Positions 19,607 through 42,579 of a stretch of DNA of 44,538 bases are shown here, in pieces. The translations under genes and the position numbers were made by a program. Source of the stretch: Sulfurimonadaceae bacterium (GTDB lineage: Bacteria; Campylobacterota; Campylobacteria; Campylobacterales; Sulfurimonadaceae). Below the pieces are notes generated by a model that made no database searches, was not told the origin of the DNA, and was given only the letters and a program-made list of their open reading frames with translations. Numbering within the stretch: the stretch's first letter is position 1; the number at the start of each line of letters is the position of its first letter. The DNA is taken from the NCBI GenBank assembly GCA_016744575.1, contig JADGEC010000014.1:1-44538 (forward strand), given 5' to 3'.

Positions 19607-19825
19607 CTACTTTACGATCTCAGTTGTAGGCTCAACATTGTTCTCTGACCCAGTACCTCTTCCCATCATGATCTCCATGAGCACCAAGATGATGATCGCC
19701 AGAAATATCCAGGGTCTAGCATTAAAGCCTTGAGGCACCTCAGCACCACAAGAAGGACATACTTTTTCATCAGAAGTCATATCTGTACCGCATTTTTTAC
19801 ACTTATCGGTTTTGAGATCAGACAT
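19607..19825 (-). CDS. Zinc-ribbon membrane protein, 72 aa
   Basis: Two CxxC pairs near the N-terminus (CKKCGTD ... CPSCGAE) make a small zinc ribbon. A single membrane helix follows at about residues 38-52 (WIFLAIIILVLMEIMM), with a short polar tail. Such zinc_ribbon-plus-TM proteins are common and mostly uncharacterised. The start overlaps the end of the upstream RHH-like gene by 8 bases. Confidence 0.7.
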   Translation of the reverse strand: MSDLKTDKCKKCGTDMTSDEKVCPSCGAEVPQGFNARPWIFLAIIILVLMEIMMGRGTGSENNVEPTTEIVK

Positions 19826-20072
19826 CTACATCATCCCAAAACTCATTAAAATCCAAATTGGTCTGAGAGTCTTTTTCAGAGAGTCGTTTCTCTAAGAGCA
19901 TCTTCTCCTGAGCGTCAAAATATAGCTGTAGTGCCTCGTTCAACATCGTATTTGAGTCTTTTTCCAGAAGCTCACCAAAAACATGTAGTCTTTCTACTGT
20001 ATCTGTATCGAGTACAAAACCAATATCTTTATCCATAAGCCGCCTGTCGTAAGAAAATATTGGTGAAATCAT
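19818..20072 (-). CDS. Ribbon-helix-helix-like small protein
   Basis: The start at 20072 has GGAG about 8 bases upstream; an alternative ATG at 20036 would begin MDKDIGFVLD, and a longer GTG frame reaches 20129. The core resembles an RHH DNA-binding fold: a strand (DIGFVLDTD), helix (TVERLHVFGELLEKD), turn, helix (SNTMLNEALQLYFDAQ). The C-terminus is acidic and charged (FNEFWDDVDV), as in some antitoxins. There is no toxin-like partner; its neighbour is a zinc-ribbon membrane protein with overlapping reading frame. The family assignment is tentative. Confidence 0.55.
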   Translation of the reverse strand: MISPIFSYDRRLMDKDIGFVLDTDTVERLHVFGELLEKDSNTMLNEALQLYFDAQEKMLLEKRLSEKDSQTNLDFNEFWDDVDV

Positions 20073-20189
20073 ATCTAAGTTCTCCATAATCATCCAGCTC
20101 CATCTATCCATTACAAATGATAAAGCCACACTTTATTGACATCCTATCTAGTCATCATATTAAAGTTTATTTCAAATAAGGACGTAAAA

Positions 20190-23129
20190 ATGATAGCAAT
20201 ACGAATAGGAGTGTTGAGTGCACTTACCGCGATGCTGCTCTTAGCATCTCCAACGAAAGAGGAGGTGGCGGAGATGAAGAAGATCGTTGGCTACTATCCT
20301 GAATGGGCTGTCTATGGAGCCCATGAGAACTATGCACCTTCGAGCATCCCTTTTGACAAGATGACCCATGTCAACTATGCTTTTGCCATCATCAAAGATG
20401 GTAAGATCGGGGTCTTTGATGATTGGGCTGCGACAGGGATAGCGTTTGATGAGGCCTGGGATAGTCCTTATAAAGGGACATTAGGGCAGTTTAAAAAACT
20501 AAAGACCTCCCATCCGGACACCAGTTTCATGATCTCGGTCGGTGGTTGGACACAGTCAGCCGCTTTTCATGATGTAGCAGCAACACCAGAAGCAAGGCAA
20601 CTCTTTGCGCAGAGTGTCGTGACTTATTTGCGTACTTGGAGTTTTGACGGTGTTGACATCGACTGGGAATACCCGGGGTCTGCCAGAGAGCCAGACTTAG
20701 TCGATAATCCAAACGACACGGGTACACCACAAGGTGATGCCAGCGAGAAAGAGAGCTTTACCCTGCTTTTAAAAGACCTTCGTAGTGCGCTTGATACTGC
20801 AGGTGAAGCAGATGGTCAGTACTACCAGTTGACGGCAGCAGTCGGAGCAAGTCCTCAAGTCATCGGGCAGACCGAACCGGTCCAGTACAGCCAGTATCTT
20901 GATTTCATCAACCTGATGACCTATGATATGCATGGTGCCTGGGACTCACAGACCAACCATCAATCACCTATCTATGCTGATGATGAGATCAGTGTCGACG
21001 GCATCGTAAGACACTTCCAGGCATTAGGCGTTAATAAACAAAAACTAGTAGTCGGTTCTCCCTTCTATTCACGAGGATGGAAAGGTGTGACATCAACTGA
21101 ATCCGGCATCTTCTCTGCTGCGACCGGTGGAGCGGATGGCATCTGGGATGGCGGCCGCGCTGCGGGTGTGAATCCCTACTATCATATCAAGTCCACACTA
21201 GAGACCGACCCCGAGTTTGTGAAATACCGGGACACTAACGCTAAAGTGCCGTATCTATATAGCAGCAGTAAAGGAGAGTTCTATACCTATGAGGATGAGA
21301 TCTCACTGGCTGAGAAGACATCATATGTAGAAGAGAACGGTTTGGGAGGTATCATCTTTTGGGAGATCACCGCAGATGCTCCAGTAAAAGGCACTTCACT
21401 TCTTGATGTTATCAACGAGGCATTCTATGGCGGTGGTCCGATACTCCCGCCAGATGATGCCGTAGACCAGAACACGACAGACACAGGTGGAGGTAGTACT
21501 GATGAGCCACCTGTCAATGCATCATCATGGGACGCGACTGCTGTTTACTTAGCTGGTGATCAGGTGCAATACGATGGCGTCCTTTATGAGGCAAAATGGT
21601 GGACACAGGGTAATATTCCTGGAACCGAAGAGTGGGGTCCATGGACTCTCATCTCAGGTGAAGTCACACCACCCGATGATACAGGGACTACTGATGACAA
21701 TACGACCACACCTGACGATGACAACACAACAGTGACACCTCCAGACCTTGGCAACTATCCTGCCTATGTCGAAGGTACTGGTTACGCGGCTGGCGATGTG
21801 GTCACAAACAACGGTGGCTATTATGCGTGTAAACCATGGCCAGCGACACCTTGGTGTGCTTCTGCAGCTTCAGCTTATGCACCGGGTGCTGGATATGCCT
21901 GGGAGGATACCTGGGATGTCTTTACCGGTACTACAGATGGCAGCACCGACAGCGGTGAGGACAACACGACTGATACAGATACGACTGTCACTGATGAGAA
22001 CGGGACCTATGTCATCTCAGCTCTGAGCTTGGCACAACAAGAGGCAGAATTGACGGACTCTGACCTGATGCGTATGGTCAAAGAGAGCATCCGTGTACGC
22101 AGTAATGATGAGGTCGATGTCATCACTGCAGGCAGTGCATCGAACCCGGCAAATGTCAAAAGAGTCGAACAGTTTGTATCACTCTCAGACTGGGATCATC
22201 TCTTTCCGGAACGTACGCAGGAGTACACTTATGATAACTTCTTAAAGGCTGTGGGTAAGTTCCCATCATTTTGTGGGGATTATGATGATGGCAAAGATGC
22301 TGATACTATCTGTAAACGCTCACTCTCTACGATGTTCGCCCACTTCACACAGGAGACCGGAGGACATAATGATTACAGTGCCATCGAGCAGTGGCGTCAG
22401 GGACTGGTCTATGTGCGAGAGGTCGGCTGGGGTGAGGAGATGCGTGATGGTTATAACGGTGAGTGTGATCCGAACCTATGGCAAGGTGAACGCTGGCCAT
22501 GCGGGACCTTCGAAGATGGCAGTTTCAAAAGCTATTTCGGTCGCGGTGCCAAACAGTTGAGTTACAACTACAACTATGGGCCGTTCTCGGAAGCGATGAC
22601 CGGTTCTGTCCATACACTTATGGATCATCCTGAACTGGTAGCGGACAGCTGGCTCAACCTGGCAAGTGCGGTCTTCTTCTTTGTCTATCCGCAGCCGCCA
22701 AAACCGAGCATGTTGCATGTCATCGACGGAACCTGGCAGCCAAATGAGCATGACATCGCAAGTGGTCTGGTACCGGGTTTTGGTGTGACGACGCAGATCA
22801 TCAATGGTGGTGTCGAGTGTGGCGGGAGCGTAGAGGTCGCTGCTTCGCAAAACCGTATCAGTTATTACCGATCTTTTAGTGATCATCTTGGATTAGACAT
22901 TCCTACTGATGAGGTGCTGGGATGTAAGTCGATGCTGCAGTTCTCATCTGAGGGTGCAGGTGCACTGCCTATCTACTGGGAGAAAGATTGGGGTTATGAT
23001 GCCAATACTCCAAATGGCGAGACCTTTAAGTGCCAGCTGGTGAACTATCAGACAGCGCACTCAGCCTTCATCGAAGGAGACTATACCAAATGTGTAGATG
23101 CCAACTTTGATGTCGTCATCGAGCAGTAA
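20190..23129 (+). CDS. Secreted dual-domain chitinase: GH18 + two CBM5/12-like + GH19
   Basis: I chose the ATG at 20190 (AAGGA 7 bases upstream; 979 aa). Signal peptide 1-20. GH18 domain about 31-415: SVGG (116-119), catalytic DGVDIDWE with Glu160, and YDMHGAW (245-251). Two chitin-binding modules of CBM5/12 type at about 445-490 (AVYLAGDQVQYDG, YEAKWWTQG) and 523-580 (longer, with two Cys), joined by Asp/Thr-rich linkers. GH19 domain about 655-910: HFTQETGGH with catalytic Glu722, YFGRGAKQLSYNYN and INGGVECGG. A Cys-containing tail follows. The two families cleave chitin by different mechanisms (retaining and inverting), so one chain may attack crystalline and amorphous chitin together. Both catalytic sites appear intact. 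It is a single gene with no transporter or GlcNAc-use genes beside it. Confidence 0.93.
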   Translation: MIAIRIGVLSALTAMLLLASPTKEEVAEMKKIVGYYPEWAVYGAHENYAPSSIPFDKMTHVNYAFAIIKDGKIGVFDDWAATGIAFDEAWDSPYKGTLGQFKKLKTSHPDTSFMISVGGWTQSAAFHDVAATPEARQLFAQSVVTYLRTWSFDGVDIDWEYPGSAREPDLVDNPNDTGTPQGDASEKESFTLLLKDLRSALDTAGEADGQYYQLTAAVGASPQVIGQTEPVQYSQYLDFINLMTYDMHGAWDSQTNHQSPIYADDEISVDGIVRHFQALGVNKQKLVVGSPFYSRGWKGVTSTESGIFSAATGGADGIWDGGRAAGVNPYYHIKSTLETDPEFVKYRDTNAKVPYLYSSSKGEFYTYEDEISLAEKTSYVEENGLGGIIFWEITADAPVKGTSLLDVINEAFYGGGPILPPDDAVDQNTTDTGGGSTDEPPVNASSWDATAVYLAGDQVQYDGVLYEAKWWTQGNIPGTEEWGPWTLISGEVTPPDDTGTTDDNTTTPDDDNTTVTPPDLGNYPAYVEGTGYAAGDVVTNNGGYYACKPWPATPWCASAASAYAPGAGYAWEDTWDVFTGTTDGSTDSGEDNTTDTDTTVTDENGTYVISALSLAQQEAELTDSDLMRMVKESIRVRSNDEVDVITAGSASNPANVKRVEQFVSLSDWDHLFPERTQEYTYDNFLKAVGKFPSFCGDYDDGKDADTICKRSLSTMFAHFTQETGGHNDYSAIEQWRQGLVYVREVGWGEEMRDGYNGECDPNLWQGERWPCGTFEDGSFKSYFGRGAKQLSYNYNYGPFSEAMTGSVHTLMDHPELVADSWLNLASAVFFFVYPQPPKPSMLHVIDGTWQPNEHDIASGLVPGFGVTTQIINGGVECGGSVEVAASQNRISYYRSFSDHLGLDIPTDEVLGCKSMLQFSSEGAGALPIYWEKDWGYDANTPNGETFKCQLVNYQTAHSAFIEGDYTKCVDANFDVVIEQ

Positions 23130-34126: not shown

Positions 34127-35548
34127 ATGATGAGCAATAACTCTTTTTACGAAAAAGTAGAAAACACACTGATCGGTCCTTACCAGTTCGAAAGACACGA
34201 ACATGTACTGAAAGATCAGATCATGCTATTGAAGATCTTGATCATAATCTCAGGATTTCTGATTACTGTCATGGCGACCTTACGACTCCTCGACCAGAAC
34301 TTCATCCAAGCTAGTGTCGATATGATATTTGTTGTCATATTAAGTAGCAGTTACCATTTCCTACATCGAGACAAGCACCATTTCAAGGCTGTCTCCCGTG
34401 TTATCATCGGCTTTGCACTGTTCACCATCGCTACACTGATACATACCCTTCCCTACTCTTTTTCACCATTGATCTGGGTCGCTACGACGATCTATCTTAT
34501 GTTCTTTCTCCTAAGCAAGAGGGAAGCCTGGAAGTGGCTGACAATAGTCATGTCCTACCTTGCGTTCATCTACTTTTCCGGTCATGGTCTGAAGACTTTA
34601 TCACCCAGTGACCTGTTCGTCTTCTTTGGCAATGTCTTGTTACTCTCTTTAGTGTTGACCTGGTATGAGAAGATAAAAGAGGAGAATGCAGAACACTACT
34701 TACAAAAGAACCTGCGACTCAAAGCAGAAGTCGCTGAAAAGACCAAAGCGCTGCGTGAGACCAATACAAGCCTGAATGAACTGAATGAGACTCTTGAAGA
34801 GAGGATCGACGATGAGATACTCAAGAGCCGTAAGAAAGATAAGATCATGCTCTCGCAATCACGTCAAGCTGCCATGGGTGATATGATCAGTATGATCGCT
34901 CATCAGTGGCGACAACCCATCACAGTGATCGGCATGGCTACCAATAACATCCTGCTTGATCTTGAGTTCGAAGAGTATGATAAACAGCGGACGGAAGAAA
35001 AATTGAACATCATCATCGAACAGACAGAGTATCTTTCCCATACTATCGATGACTTCAGAGATTTTCTAAGACCTACGAAACGTCCCAAAAGTGCCATGCT
35101 TACCAGTATCACAGAAGGGGCTTTGAGCATAATCGGTCCAAGCCTTGAGGAGAACGGCATCACCTTAAAAAACAGTCCTGAAAGTGATATCGAACTTATG
35201 ACTTTTCCAAACGAACTGGTCCAGGTACTACTTAATGTCCTCAGTAATGCCAAGGATGCCCTTAAAAACAGACAGATAGAGGACGGCCACATCTGGCTTT
35301 ACACCAAAGCCGATGAGACTACGGCCATCTTTAAAGTCTGTGATGATGCAGGTGGTATTCCAGATGATGTACTTCCGAGGATATTTGAACCCTATTTTAG
35401 TACCAAGGAGTCAAAAGGCGGTACAGGTCTAGGGCTCTATATGTCTCAGTTGATCATAGAAAAGCGACTGGGTGGAAGTATCCAAGGTGAGAACTCCGGT
35501 GACGGAGCCTGTTTTACTATTAGCTTACCCAGAAGAGAGAAGGAGTAA
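34127..35548 (+). CDS. Membrane sensor histidine kinase
   Basis: 473 aa. N-terminal membrane domain with about six helices (roughly residues 33-53, 62-78, 90-108, 114-130, 137-150, 163-180). Then a coiled coil (185-245) and the kinase core: His259 in MIAHQWRQPITVI, N-box LLNVLSNAKDAL, G1 CDDAGGIP and G2 GGTGLGLYMSQLIIEK. There is no periplasmic sensor, so the signal is likely sensed in the membrane. The next gene starts 4 bases after the stop and is the obvious partner. Weak RBS and no clear promoter. Confidence 0.92.
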   Translation: MMSNNSFYEKVENTLIGPYQFERHEHVLKDQIMLLKILIIISGFLITVMATLRLLDQNFIQASVDMIFVVILSSSYHFLHRDKHHFKAVSRVIIGFALFTIATLIHTLPYSFSPLIWVATTIYLMFFLLSKREAWKWLTIVMSYLAFIYFSGHGLKTLSPSDLFVFFGNVLLLSLVLTWYEKIKEENAEHYLQKNLRLKAEVAEKTKALRETNTSLNELNETLEERIDDEILKSRKKDKIMLSQSRQAAMGDMISMIAHQWRQPITVIGMATNNILLDLEFEEYDKQRTEEKLNIIIEQTEYLSHTIDDFRDFLRPTKRPKSAMLTSITEGALSIIGPSLEENGITLKNSPESDIELMTFPNELVQVLLNVLSNAKDALKNRQIEDGHIWLYTKADETTAIFKVCDDAGGIPDDVLPRIFEPYFSTKESKGGTGLGLYMSQLIIEKRLGGSIQGENSGDGACFTISLPRREKE

Positions 35549-35552
35549 TATC

Positions 35553-37301
35553 ATGTCGATCGCTTCCCAACTTATGACACATGCCAAAGCGTTGTCCATC
35601 TTGTATGTAGAAGACGACAAAAAGATACGTGCTGAGATCGCTGAGTTTTTAGATCGCTTTTTTTTAACAGTCGATCTTGCAGATAATGGTAAAGAGGGCT
35701 TACTGAAGTATAAAGAAAAGCATTATGATATAGTCATCACCGATCTCAATATGCCTGTGATGGGCGGCATCGAGATGTCTAAAGCTCTCAAGAAAAAGCA
35801 TCCGGAACAACCTATCGTCATCATATCAGCACATAACGAATCGGAATACCTCTTGGAACTCATCAACATAGGTGTAGAGCATTATGTATTGAAGCCGATC
35901 GACATGAAGTCGTTTGCCAAAGCGCTCGATGTGTTAGCAGCCCACATCTACAATACTGAGCTTTTCAACAAATATCATAAAAACATCGAGCAAGACAACG
36001 AACGACTTGCCCATAAAGTCACCAGTACGACAGCTGAGCTTAAAAATCAACGTAACACAGACACCTTGACAGGCTTACAAAACCTTTCGGCCTTGATGAG
36101 TACACTCGAAGAGTTTGAAAAGATGAAAGACGGTTTCGCAGTGATCATACTACTAGACATACGGGGCTTCAGATCGATCAATGATCTATACGGCCCGGCA
36201 GCCGGGAACCAAGTCCTTATCGACTTAGGTGACTTTCTAAAAAGATTCGCTTACGACAACACTTATCGACTCTACCGTATATCCGGTGACCAGTTCGTAT
36301 TATATGAACAGACAAGCTATCTTGACACCGATAGATATGACGATCACCTCAGCGAGCTTAAGACCGAGATAAATGGTCTTAGCATCTATCTGGAAAAATT
36401 TGATAAAGAGATCAGTCTGACTATGACGATCGGTATGTCATTTGGACAAGAGAGTCCACTTGAACATGCCAACATGGCTCTCAACAATGCCAAGAAAAAC
36501 AACAAAAGTCATGCCGTCTATAACACGACACTGGATATGACCGATGAGATAAAGGCTCAGTTTGCATGGCAGCACAAGATCGATCTGGCTATCTTGAGCG
36601 ATCAGATCATCCCTGTCTATCAGCCTATCGTGGACAGCAGCGGCAATATCGTCAAATATGAGACACTTATGCGCGTCATAGAGGAGGTCGATGGTGAGAA
36701 GAGATTGATCGCCCCTTTTCATTTTCTTGATATAGCTATTGAGAACCGTCAGTATGACACGCTCTCGAGGATGGTGATCCTAAAGGCACTAAAAGGGTTA
36801 GCAGCCAATGACTACAGTATATCGATCAACCTGACCATGGATGATATCAACAATAAACCTTTTTTGGATGAGATCTACAATACGATCAAAAAAGATAAAA
36901 CGGAAAAACGGCTTATCATCGAGATCACAGAGAGCCAAAGTGTCGAAAACTATAGAAGTCTAAAAGATCTTGTAGAAAAGTTCAAGCAACTTGGTATCCG
37001 ATTTGCCATCGATGATTTTGGCAGTGGCTTTTCAAATTTTGAACGTATTCTCGAGATCCAACCTGATTACATAAAGATCGATGGTTCTCTGATCAAAGAT
37101 ATCAACACCAATACACACACGCATATCTTGACCAATGCTATAACGAGTTTTTCACATGAGCTAGGCATCAAAGTGATCGCAGAGTATGTACATTCAGAAG
37201 AGATATTCTTCATCCTCAAACAATTTGGTGTGGACGAGTTCCAAGGTTACTACTTCTCTGAACCACAGATAGAGATAAATAGAGCATCTCAAATACAGTG
37301 A
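35553..37301 (+). CDS. Response regulator with degenerate GGDEF and EAL domains
   Basis: Start at ATG 35553 with GGAG upstream (582 aa). Receiver domain 12-130: acidic pocket EDD (20-22), phosphorylated Asp64 (DIVITDLNMPVMGG), Lys in VLKPID. Helical linker, then a GGDEF domain (about 165-325) whose signature reads SGDQF, so no diguanylate cyclase activity is expected. The EAL domain (about 335-580) keeps ETLMR, INLTMDD, EITES, the double-Asp IDDFGSGFSNF, KIDGS and FQGYYFSEP, so it is expected to hydrolyse c-di-GMP. The upstream kinase would control it by phosphorylation. Confidence 0.93.
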   Translation: MSIASQLMTHAKALSILYVEDDKKIRAEIAEFLDRFFLTVDLADNGKEGLLKYKEKHYDIVITDLNMPVMGGIEMSKALKKKHPEQPIVIISAHNESEYLLELINIGVEHYVLKPIDMKSFAKALDVLAAHIYNTELFNKYHKNIEQDNERLAHKVTSTTAELKNQRNTDTLTGLQNLSALMSTLEEFEKMKDGFAVIILLDIRGFRSINDLYGPAAGNQVLIDLGDFLKRFAYDNTYRLYRISGDQFVLYEQTSYLDTDRYDDHLSELKTEINGLSIYLEKFDKEISLTMTIGMSFGQESPLEHANMALNNAKKNNKSHAVYNTTLDMTDEIKAQFAWQHKIDLAILSDQIIPVYQPIVDSSGNIVKYETLMRVIEEVDGEKRLIAPFHFLDIAIENRQYDTLSRMVILKALKGLAANDYSISINLTMDDINNKPFLDEIYNTIKKDKTEKRLIIEITESQSVENYRSLKDLVEKFKQLGIRFAIDDFGSGFSNFERILEIQPDYIKIDGSLIKDINTNTHTHILTNAITSFSHELGIKVIAEYVHSEEIFFILKQFGVDEFQGYYFSEPQIEINRASQIQ

Positions 37302-41676: not shown

Positions 41677-42579
41677 ATGCAAGACTATCAAAGCCTAAAA
41701 GAACACTATAAGTTCACTGATGAGGAAGCGCAGATCCTGCAAGAGCTTCGACCCAGGATGGAGAAGCTTTCAGATAGGTTTATCGATGAGTTCTATGACT
41801 ATATCTGGGGATTTGGCAAGACAGCGCAATTTCTAAAGAACAAAGAGATAATCGCTCATCATCGTAAAAAGATAAAAGAGTGGTTCATCAACCTGTTTTC
41901 CGGCAAGTATGACCTTCCCTACTTTATGTATCTTTATAAGATCGGTGAGGTCCATGTGAGGATCGGTCTGCCGACTCATTATGTCAACTCTGCATTTACC
42001 TTTGTCAGGACCTTTGCCTTGACAAATATCGAAGAGAACTTCACAAGTAAAGAGCAGCATGTCAATGAGATAAAGGCTGTTGAGAAGATCATAGACATCA
42101 ACCTTGATGTCTTGACAAGCTCCTACAGAGAAGAGGAATTAAGTAAGTTCTTATCGCTGTCAAAGTTTGAGAAGCGAGTCTTGACAGGTCTCAAAAAGTT
42201 CAACTCTTACATCAACTTTTTTCTTGCAGGCGCTTTGGCTCTTGTCGCGTTCTTTGCTATCGGACTATTTGCTTATGACATCTATCTGCTGTTCTTCACA
42301 GACATGGGCATAGAAAAAGGCATTCTCACAATATTGGGAAGTCTGTTGGTCCTATGGGCGGCTATCGAGTTGATCCATGAAGAGATAGAACATCTTCAAG
42401 GCAAGGGTTTTGCCATAGGTGCTTTTATCATGCTGGCCATGGCGGCATTGATAAGAAAAGTGTTGATCTATTCTCTCTCCTCTGAGAAGTCTGACGAACT
42501 CCTGGTAATAGGTGCAGTCATAGTCGGTCTGGCAATCGCTTATTGGCTTGTCGGTACAAAAAGAAAGAGCATAGGTTAA
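41677..42579 (+). CDS. Protoglobin-PsiE membrane fusion protein
   Basis: 300 aa. Residues 1-165 form a protoglobin/globin-coupled-sensor domain: YKFTDEEAQILQELRPRM, then IGEVHVRIGLPTHYV with proximal heme ligand His93. A linker (166-185) leads to four hydrophobic helices (about 190-300) resembling the phosphate-starvation protein PsiE: LLVLWAAIELIHEEIEHL, then the AALIRKVLIY segment. Heme-globin sensors usually drive kinase, methyl-accepting or cyclase outputs. Here the output would be a membrane domain of unknown activity. I infer an oxygen- or NO-responsive membrane protein. Single gene. Confidence 0.82.
   Translation: MQDYQSLKEHYKFTDEEAQILQELRPRMEKLSDRFIDEFYDYIWGFGKTAQFLKNKEIIAHHRKKIKEWFINLFSGKYDLPYFMYLYKIGEVHVRIGLPTHYVNSAFTFVRTFALTNIEENFTSKEQHVNEIKAVEKIIDINLDVLTSSYREEELSKFLSLSKFEKRVLTGLKKFNSYINFFLAGALALVAFFAIGLFAYDIYLLFFTDMGIEKGILTILGSLLVLWAAIELIHEEIEHLQGKGFAIGAFIMLAMAALIRKVLIYSLSSEKSDELLVIGAVIVGLAIAYWLVGTKRKSIG

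Follow-up and report, generated by a model that had tools for sequence, protein, structure and literature searches.

How does a single open reading frame in a Campylobacterota genome come to join two unrelated chitinase families, and what would such a chain do for its bearer? GH18 enzymes retain the anomeric configuration of the cleaved sugar and GH19 enzymes invert it. In the window, i.e., the 44,538-nucleotide stretch of a Sulfurimonadaceae genome analysed here, positions 20190-23129 (+) hold one frame from ATG 20190 to TAA 23129, with an AAGGA-type ribosome site directly 5' of the start, no internal stop and a product of 979 aa, arranged as a signal-like N-terminus, GH18, two CBM5/12 modules and GH19. 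The original prediction, of one secreted-type chain carrying both families and two chitin-binding modules, was borne out by this 979-codon frame and its Pfam domains; the frame is whole where a frameshift or break between the catalytic halves was looked for, and the catalytic residues Glu160 and Glu722 and the motifs lie where they had been placed.

The chain opens with a signal-peptide-like stretch, MIAIRIGVLSALTAMLLLAS (aa 1-20; 20190..20249, +), made up of a charged start and a hydrophobic core, and homologous chains display a similar hydrophobic N-terminus followed by SPTK. The GH18 catalytic domain (aa 31-396; 20280..21377, +) matches Pfam PF00704 (Glyco_hydro_18) over profile positions 1-317 of 317, at 282.5 bits against a curated cut-off of 29.6 (E 7.6e-84), has the multi-domain chitinase 5gzu as its best PDB match (E 6.9e-121), and carries the DxxDxDxE motif as DGVDIDWE at aa 153-160, with E160 as the catalytic glutamate. 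Two stretches match CBM_5_12 (PF02839), scoring 45.5 bits for the whole protein against a cut-off of 26.2: (i) module 1 at aa 447-485 (21528..21644, +), also recovered by blastp of the module, and (ii) module 2 at about aa 526-576 (21765..21917, +), backed by blastp and by a match of aa 526-576 to the C-terminal part of GbpA.

Profile, PDB sequence search and predicted fold all identify the C-terminal half as GH19. Its catalytic domain (aa 678-904; 22221..22901, +) matches Pfam PF00182 (Glyco_hydro_19) at 131.1 bits against a curated cut-off of 25.5 (E 7.1e-38), and it bears HFTQETGGH at aa 718-726 and INGGVECGG at aa 871-879. Aligned with papaya chitinase 3cql, E722 and the second catalytic glutamate, E744, fall on the acid and the base of that enzyme, and neither varies among 27 relatives in the GH19 alignment; as elsewhere in the family, E722 would be the acid and E744 the base. 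Alignments place an N-terminal extension at aa 611-677 (22020..22220, +), shared by the dual chains and by GH19 relatives with a single domain, and a C-terminal extension at aa 905-979 (22902..23126, +), outside the Pfam domain and likewise kept in relatives. Sequence search of the PDB returns ancestral and plant-type GH19 chitinases (8x2v, E 6.9e-46), and an AlphaFold2 model of aa 611-979 (pLDDT 85.3, pTM 0.87) is matched by Foldseek to 8x2w/8x2v at TM 0.89 and to 2baa at TM 0.87, both normalised to target; these scores are far above chance.

As the GH19 family includes endolysins (PMC8547705), the C-terminal half might instead act as a lysozyme or endolysin on bacterial walls. We regard this as very improbable: the best structural matches are GH19 chitinases of plant type or ancestral GH19 chitinases (best TM 0.85-0.89, normalised to target), the one endolysin among the sequence matches is the weakest of them, the domain is joined to chitin-binding modules, and the viral contig scan gave no relative.

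That the two halves truly belong to one gene follows from independently assembled genomes. The window genome is a fragmented draft (3.59 Mb in 228 contigs, rated 100% complete with 3.63% contamination), and in Oxalobacteraceae relatives GH18 and GH19 are encoded by separate adjoining genes; the chain could thus have been stitched together in assembly from separate GH18 and GH19 genes. Indeed, tblastn hits in Inhella, Duganella and Massilia/Oxalobacteraceae span nearly the whole query, and on inspection these candidates for dual chains proved to be separate neighbouring genes. However, the linkers in the window chain are intact and in frame, and full-length chains with GH18, CBM5/12 and GH19 in the same order in one frame are found in three further Campylobacterota genomes of two families: a Sulfurovum MAG of the same order as the window genome (L002/G575), Helicobacteraceae bacterium GLR69 of the same family (L003/G011), and L095/G132, the chain of which has three CBMs. 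(Matches listed for L002 under the handle G581 fall at positions identical to those of G575, and the two are counted once.) Kinship with the first two bears out that the window genome belongs to Campylobacterota. An assembly join is therefore scarcely credible and, for practical purposes, refuted.

The GH18-GH19 architecture is thus genuine, and it is known from earlier work and rare. The 2016 survey by Talamantes et al. reports 12,715 GH18 and 1,683 GH19 proteins, and only two proteins combining them in 11,953 bacterial genomes (PMC4928363); a natural pairing of a retaining with an inverting chitinase in one chain is rare by that count. One further such chain is described from Endozoicomonadaceae (PMC10576748) and two from the diatom Thalassiosira weissflogii, TwChi10/22 (PMC12028343). 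These published chains share with the window chain the presence of both catalytic families; they come from other organisms, or from the genomes of the 2016 survey, and are likened to the window chain by description rather than by sequence. In contrast to them, the window chain stands out for a genome lacking nagA, nagB and GH20. The dual chain had been called unexpected: the rarity holds, but several genera of the order carry the chain and earlier papers describe GH18-GH19 chains, and for the latter reason we dropped the notion of an architecture unique to Campylobacterota. For a dual chain within Campylobacterota, we found no paper, in partial coverage of the literature.

Partial counterparts are closer in sequence. 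Salmonella STM0233 (GH19 + PKD + CBM), reported to promote small-intestinal invasion in a host-glycan role (PMC9049507), has a GH19 module that shares 65% identity with that of the window across 99% of the queried part, with the extensions counted in, and a CBM of the same type as window CBM 2; however, it and related gammaproteobacterial GH19 chitinases lack the GH18 half and carry the CBM at the other end. Like the window chain, 5gzu has two catalytic domains per chain, but both are GH18. A 1127-aa chain from the Campylobacterota MAG HM1-3a (L113:6712-10095 (+), also L007; G234) has a similar start, an N-terminal GH18 about 50% identical to that of the window, and CBM5/12, in the order GH18-CBM5-GH18; i.e., a second GH18 occupies the place of GH19.

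The distribution of the chain is patchy. Seven of the 228 family genomes match the window protein at all, and three have the full chain; an order-wide sample gave matches in 5 of 399 genomes, adding G575 and G535 (other family). Of 369 genomes drawn from the class of Inhella, 11 match and none has a dual chain, nor was one found among genome-contig loci outside Campylobacterota. A phage origin was rejected, as no viral contig matches and the only match filed under phages is a Salmonella chromosomal contig.

Two relatives are broken. In G004, of the same genus (L094, G004:C464), the locus is conserved on both flanks and about 2.1 kb has shrunk to about 0.1 kb, with loss of the signal, GH18 and both CBMs; the GH19 frame that is left has no ATG before codon 73. 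(One gene upstream, this locus also carries an additional gene of GGDEF type.) In G535, a dual chain (L111:7627-10821 (-)) contains an in-frame TAG within GH19. Together, these cases indicate that either half can be lost and, on the sequences at hand, that the GH18-GH19 pairing is not always kept. Along with the patchy distribution, they could suggest a horizontally passed passenger gene of marginal use that is heading for decay. We consider this improbable, as the window copy is unbroken, retains every catalytic residue and has native codon use. Moreover, dN/dS between the GH19 of the window and that of G004 is 0.06, at a dS of 1.09 that is near saturation, which points to strong selection during most of their separation; thus, either G004 suffered its loss only recently or its contig was wrongly joined.

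As to how the fusion arose, a quick tree groups the dual-chain GH18 halves in a single clade (SH-aLRT 96). The GH19 halves group with Salmonella STM0233, Photobacterium DA100, and G876, G771 and G632, the latter three being genomes from the class-of-Inhella sample. A first GH19 tree placed the dual-chain halves in one clade (92/88), but with closer single GH19 proteins added, a single clade was not resolved (AU p 0.228), so that a single fusion is argued for solely by the GH18 clade and the shared domain order. By blastp, window CBM 1 shares its type with modules of the other Campylobacterota dual chains, whereas CBM 2 is unlike their second CBM and has its counterparts in G876 and in the GH19 chitinases of Gammaproteobacteria (Salmonella STM0233, Photobacterium DA100). 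The simplest reading would be that a GH18-CBM piece was joined to a CBM-GH19 piece and that some lineages afterwards swapped the middle module; these events may also have run in the opposite order. Horizontal gain, raised in the original prediction for the gene at large, finds support in similarity and trees for the GH19-CBM2 half. The proposed signature of that gain, codon use differing from the window, did not materialise: codon use is native and like that of the neighbouring genes (an excess distance of 0.010, no more than other long genes of the window show), which speaks against a recent transfer and implies that any transfer is old.

What the chain is used for depends on the genome around it, of which it is the sole GH18 and the sole GH19. 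Profile searches, on which the gene absences in this genome rest, gave no match to nagA, nagB or GH20 at E <= 0.001. GH3 is matched by an open frame of 377 codons, the size of NagZ. The full-chain family relatives G011 and G132 likewise lack nagA and GH20, while nagA is present in G535 and G575 of the other family, and GH20 also in G535. As had been noted from the sequence, no GlcNAc genes sit beside the chitinase gene: its neighbours encode a 5'-nucleotidase, a 103-aa protein, a methyltransferase and a two-component system. No gene recognised as serving GlcNAc or chitooligosaccharide uptake is among them, and no chitin-linked genes were seen among the sampled neighbours of other dual chains. 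The 103-aa protein (19818-20129) has no Pfam match, is divergent from the chitinase gene and holds the same place in G004. Elsewhere in the window, a histidine kinase frame overlaps a response regulator-GGDEF-EAL frame by 77 bases (34127-37301), and a 300-aa protein joins protoglobin and PsiE domains (41677-42579); near the G011 dual chitinase, an outer-membrane phospholipase A1 with a Sel1 repeat is encoded (L096:9198-10286 (-)).

The earlier suggestion of chitin use finds no confirmation in these searches, since nagA, nagB and GH20 are missing genome-wide rather than only locally, though GH3 is present. A nutritional chitinase would supply chitobiose or GlcNAc, taken up for carbon, nitrogen or wall building, with GH3 and non-standard enzymes in place of NagA, NagB and GH20. 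The GH3 itself, the nagA of dual-chain relatives (and the GH20 of G535), the two CBMs, which point to insoluble chitin, and the scope for unrelated enzymes to stand in for NagA and NagB all speak for such a role. However, the three standard genes are absent from a genome rated complete, uptake genes are not recognised nearby, and the GH3 may serve peptidoglycan recycling only. On balance, we judge a nutritional role rather unlikely.

The protein is probably a chitinase that is secreted and acts with two heads, one in each catalytic half. It would take the Sec route across the inner membrane and probably a type II secretion system across the outer one. A GspD-type secretin (TIGR02517) at G000:C3:16168-17808 scores 352.9 bits with neighbours included, just over the cut-off of 351.35; G004, G011, G535 and G575 also have one over the curated cut-off, and in G132 it falls below. 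Once outside, the two CBM5/12 modules, on acidic flexible linkers, would keep the enzyme on chitin while both halves attack: the GH18 half by retaining, substrate-assisted catalysis through Glu160, and the GH19 half by inverting catalysis with Glu722 as acid and Glu744 as base. By analogy with the families, the GH18 half may move along chains and release short sugars, and the GH19 half may cut internally, so that either half would create ends, or loosen chain, on which its partner could act. In the window genome, the products would probably bypass the standard NagA-NagB route.

Such an enzyme may perhaps be used, somewhat short of an even chance in our view, for opening or settling on chitinous surfaces, e.g., animal tubes, cuticle or detritus. 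We place this surface use slightly ahead of feeding because the usual GlcNAc route is missing; feeding stays a close second, given the GH3, a genome still in draft and relatives that bear nagA. The combined scenario, which we put forward tentatively and with some doubt, is that of one old Campylobacterota fusion, between a GH18 and a gammaproteobacterial-type CBM-GH19, kept in lineages lacking GlcNAc catabolism for opening or colonising chitinous animal surfaces and not for food.

Ultimately, this case adds to the few known GH18-GH19 chains a Campylobacterota lineage, its broken relatives and a setting in which catabolic genes are missing. The relatives that each lack one half constitute natural comparisons for what the pairing of a retaining with an inverting chitinase adds, and the presence of a chitinase where nagA and nagB are missing points to the cutting of chitin for purposes other than feeding.
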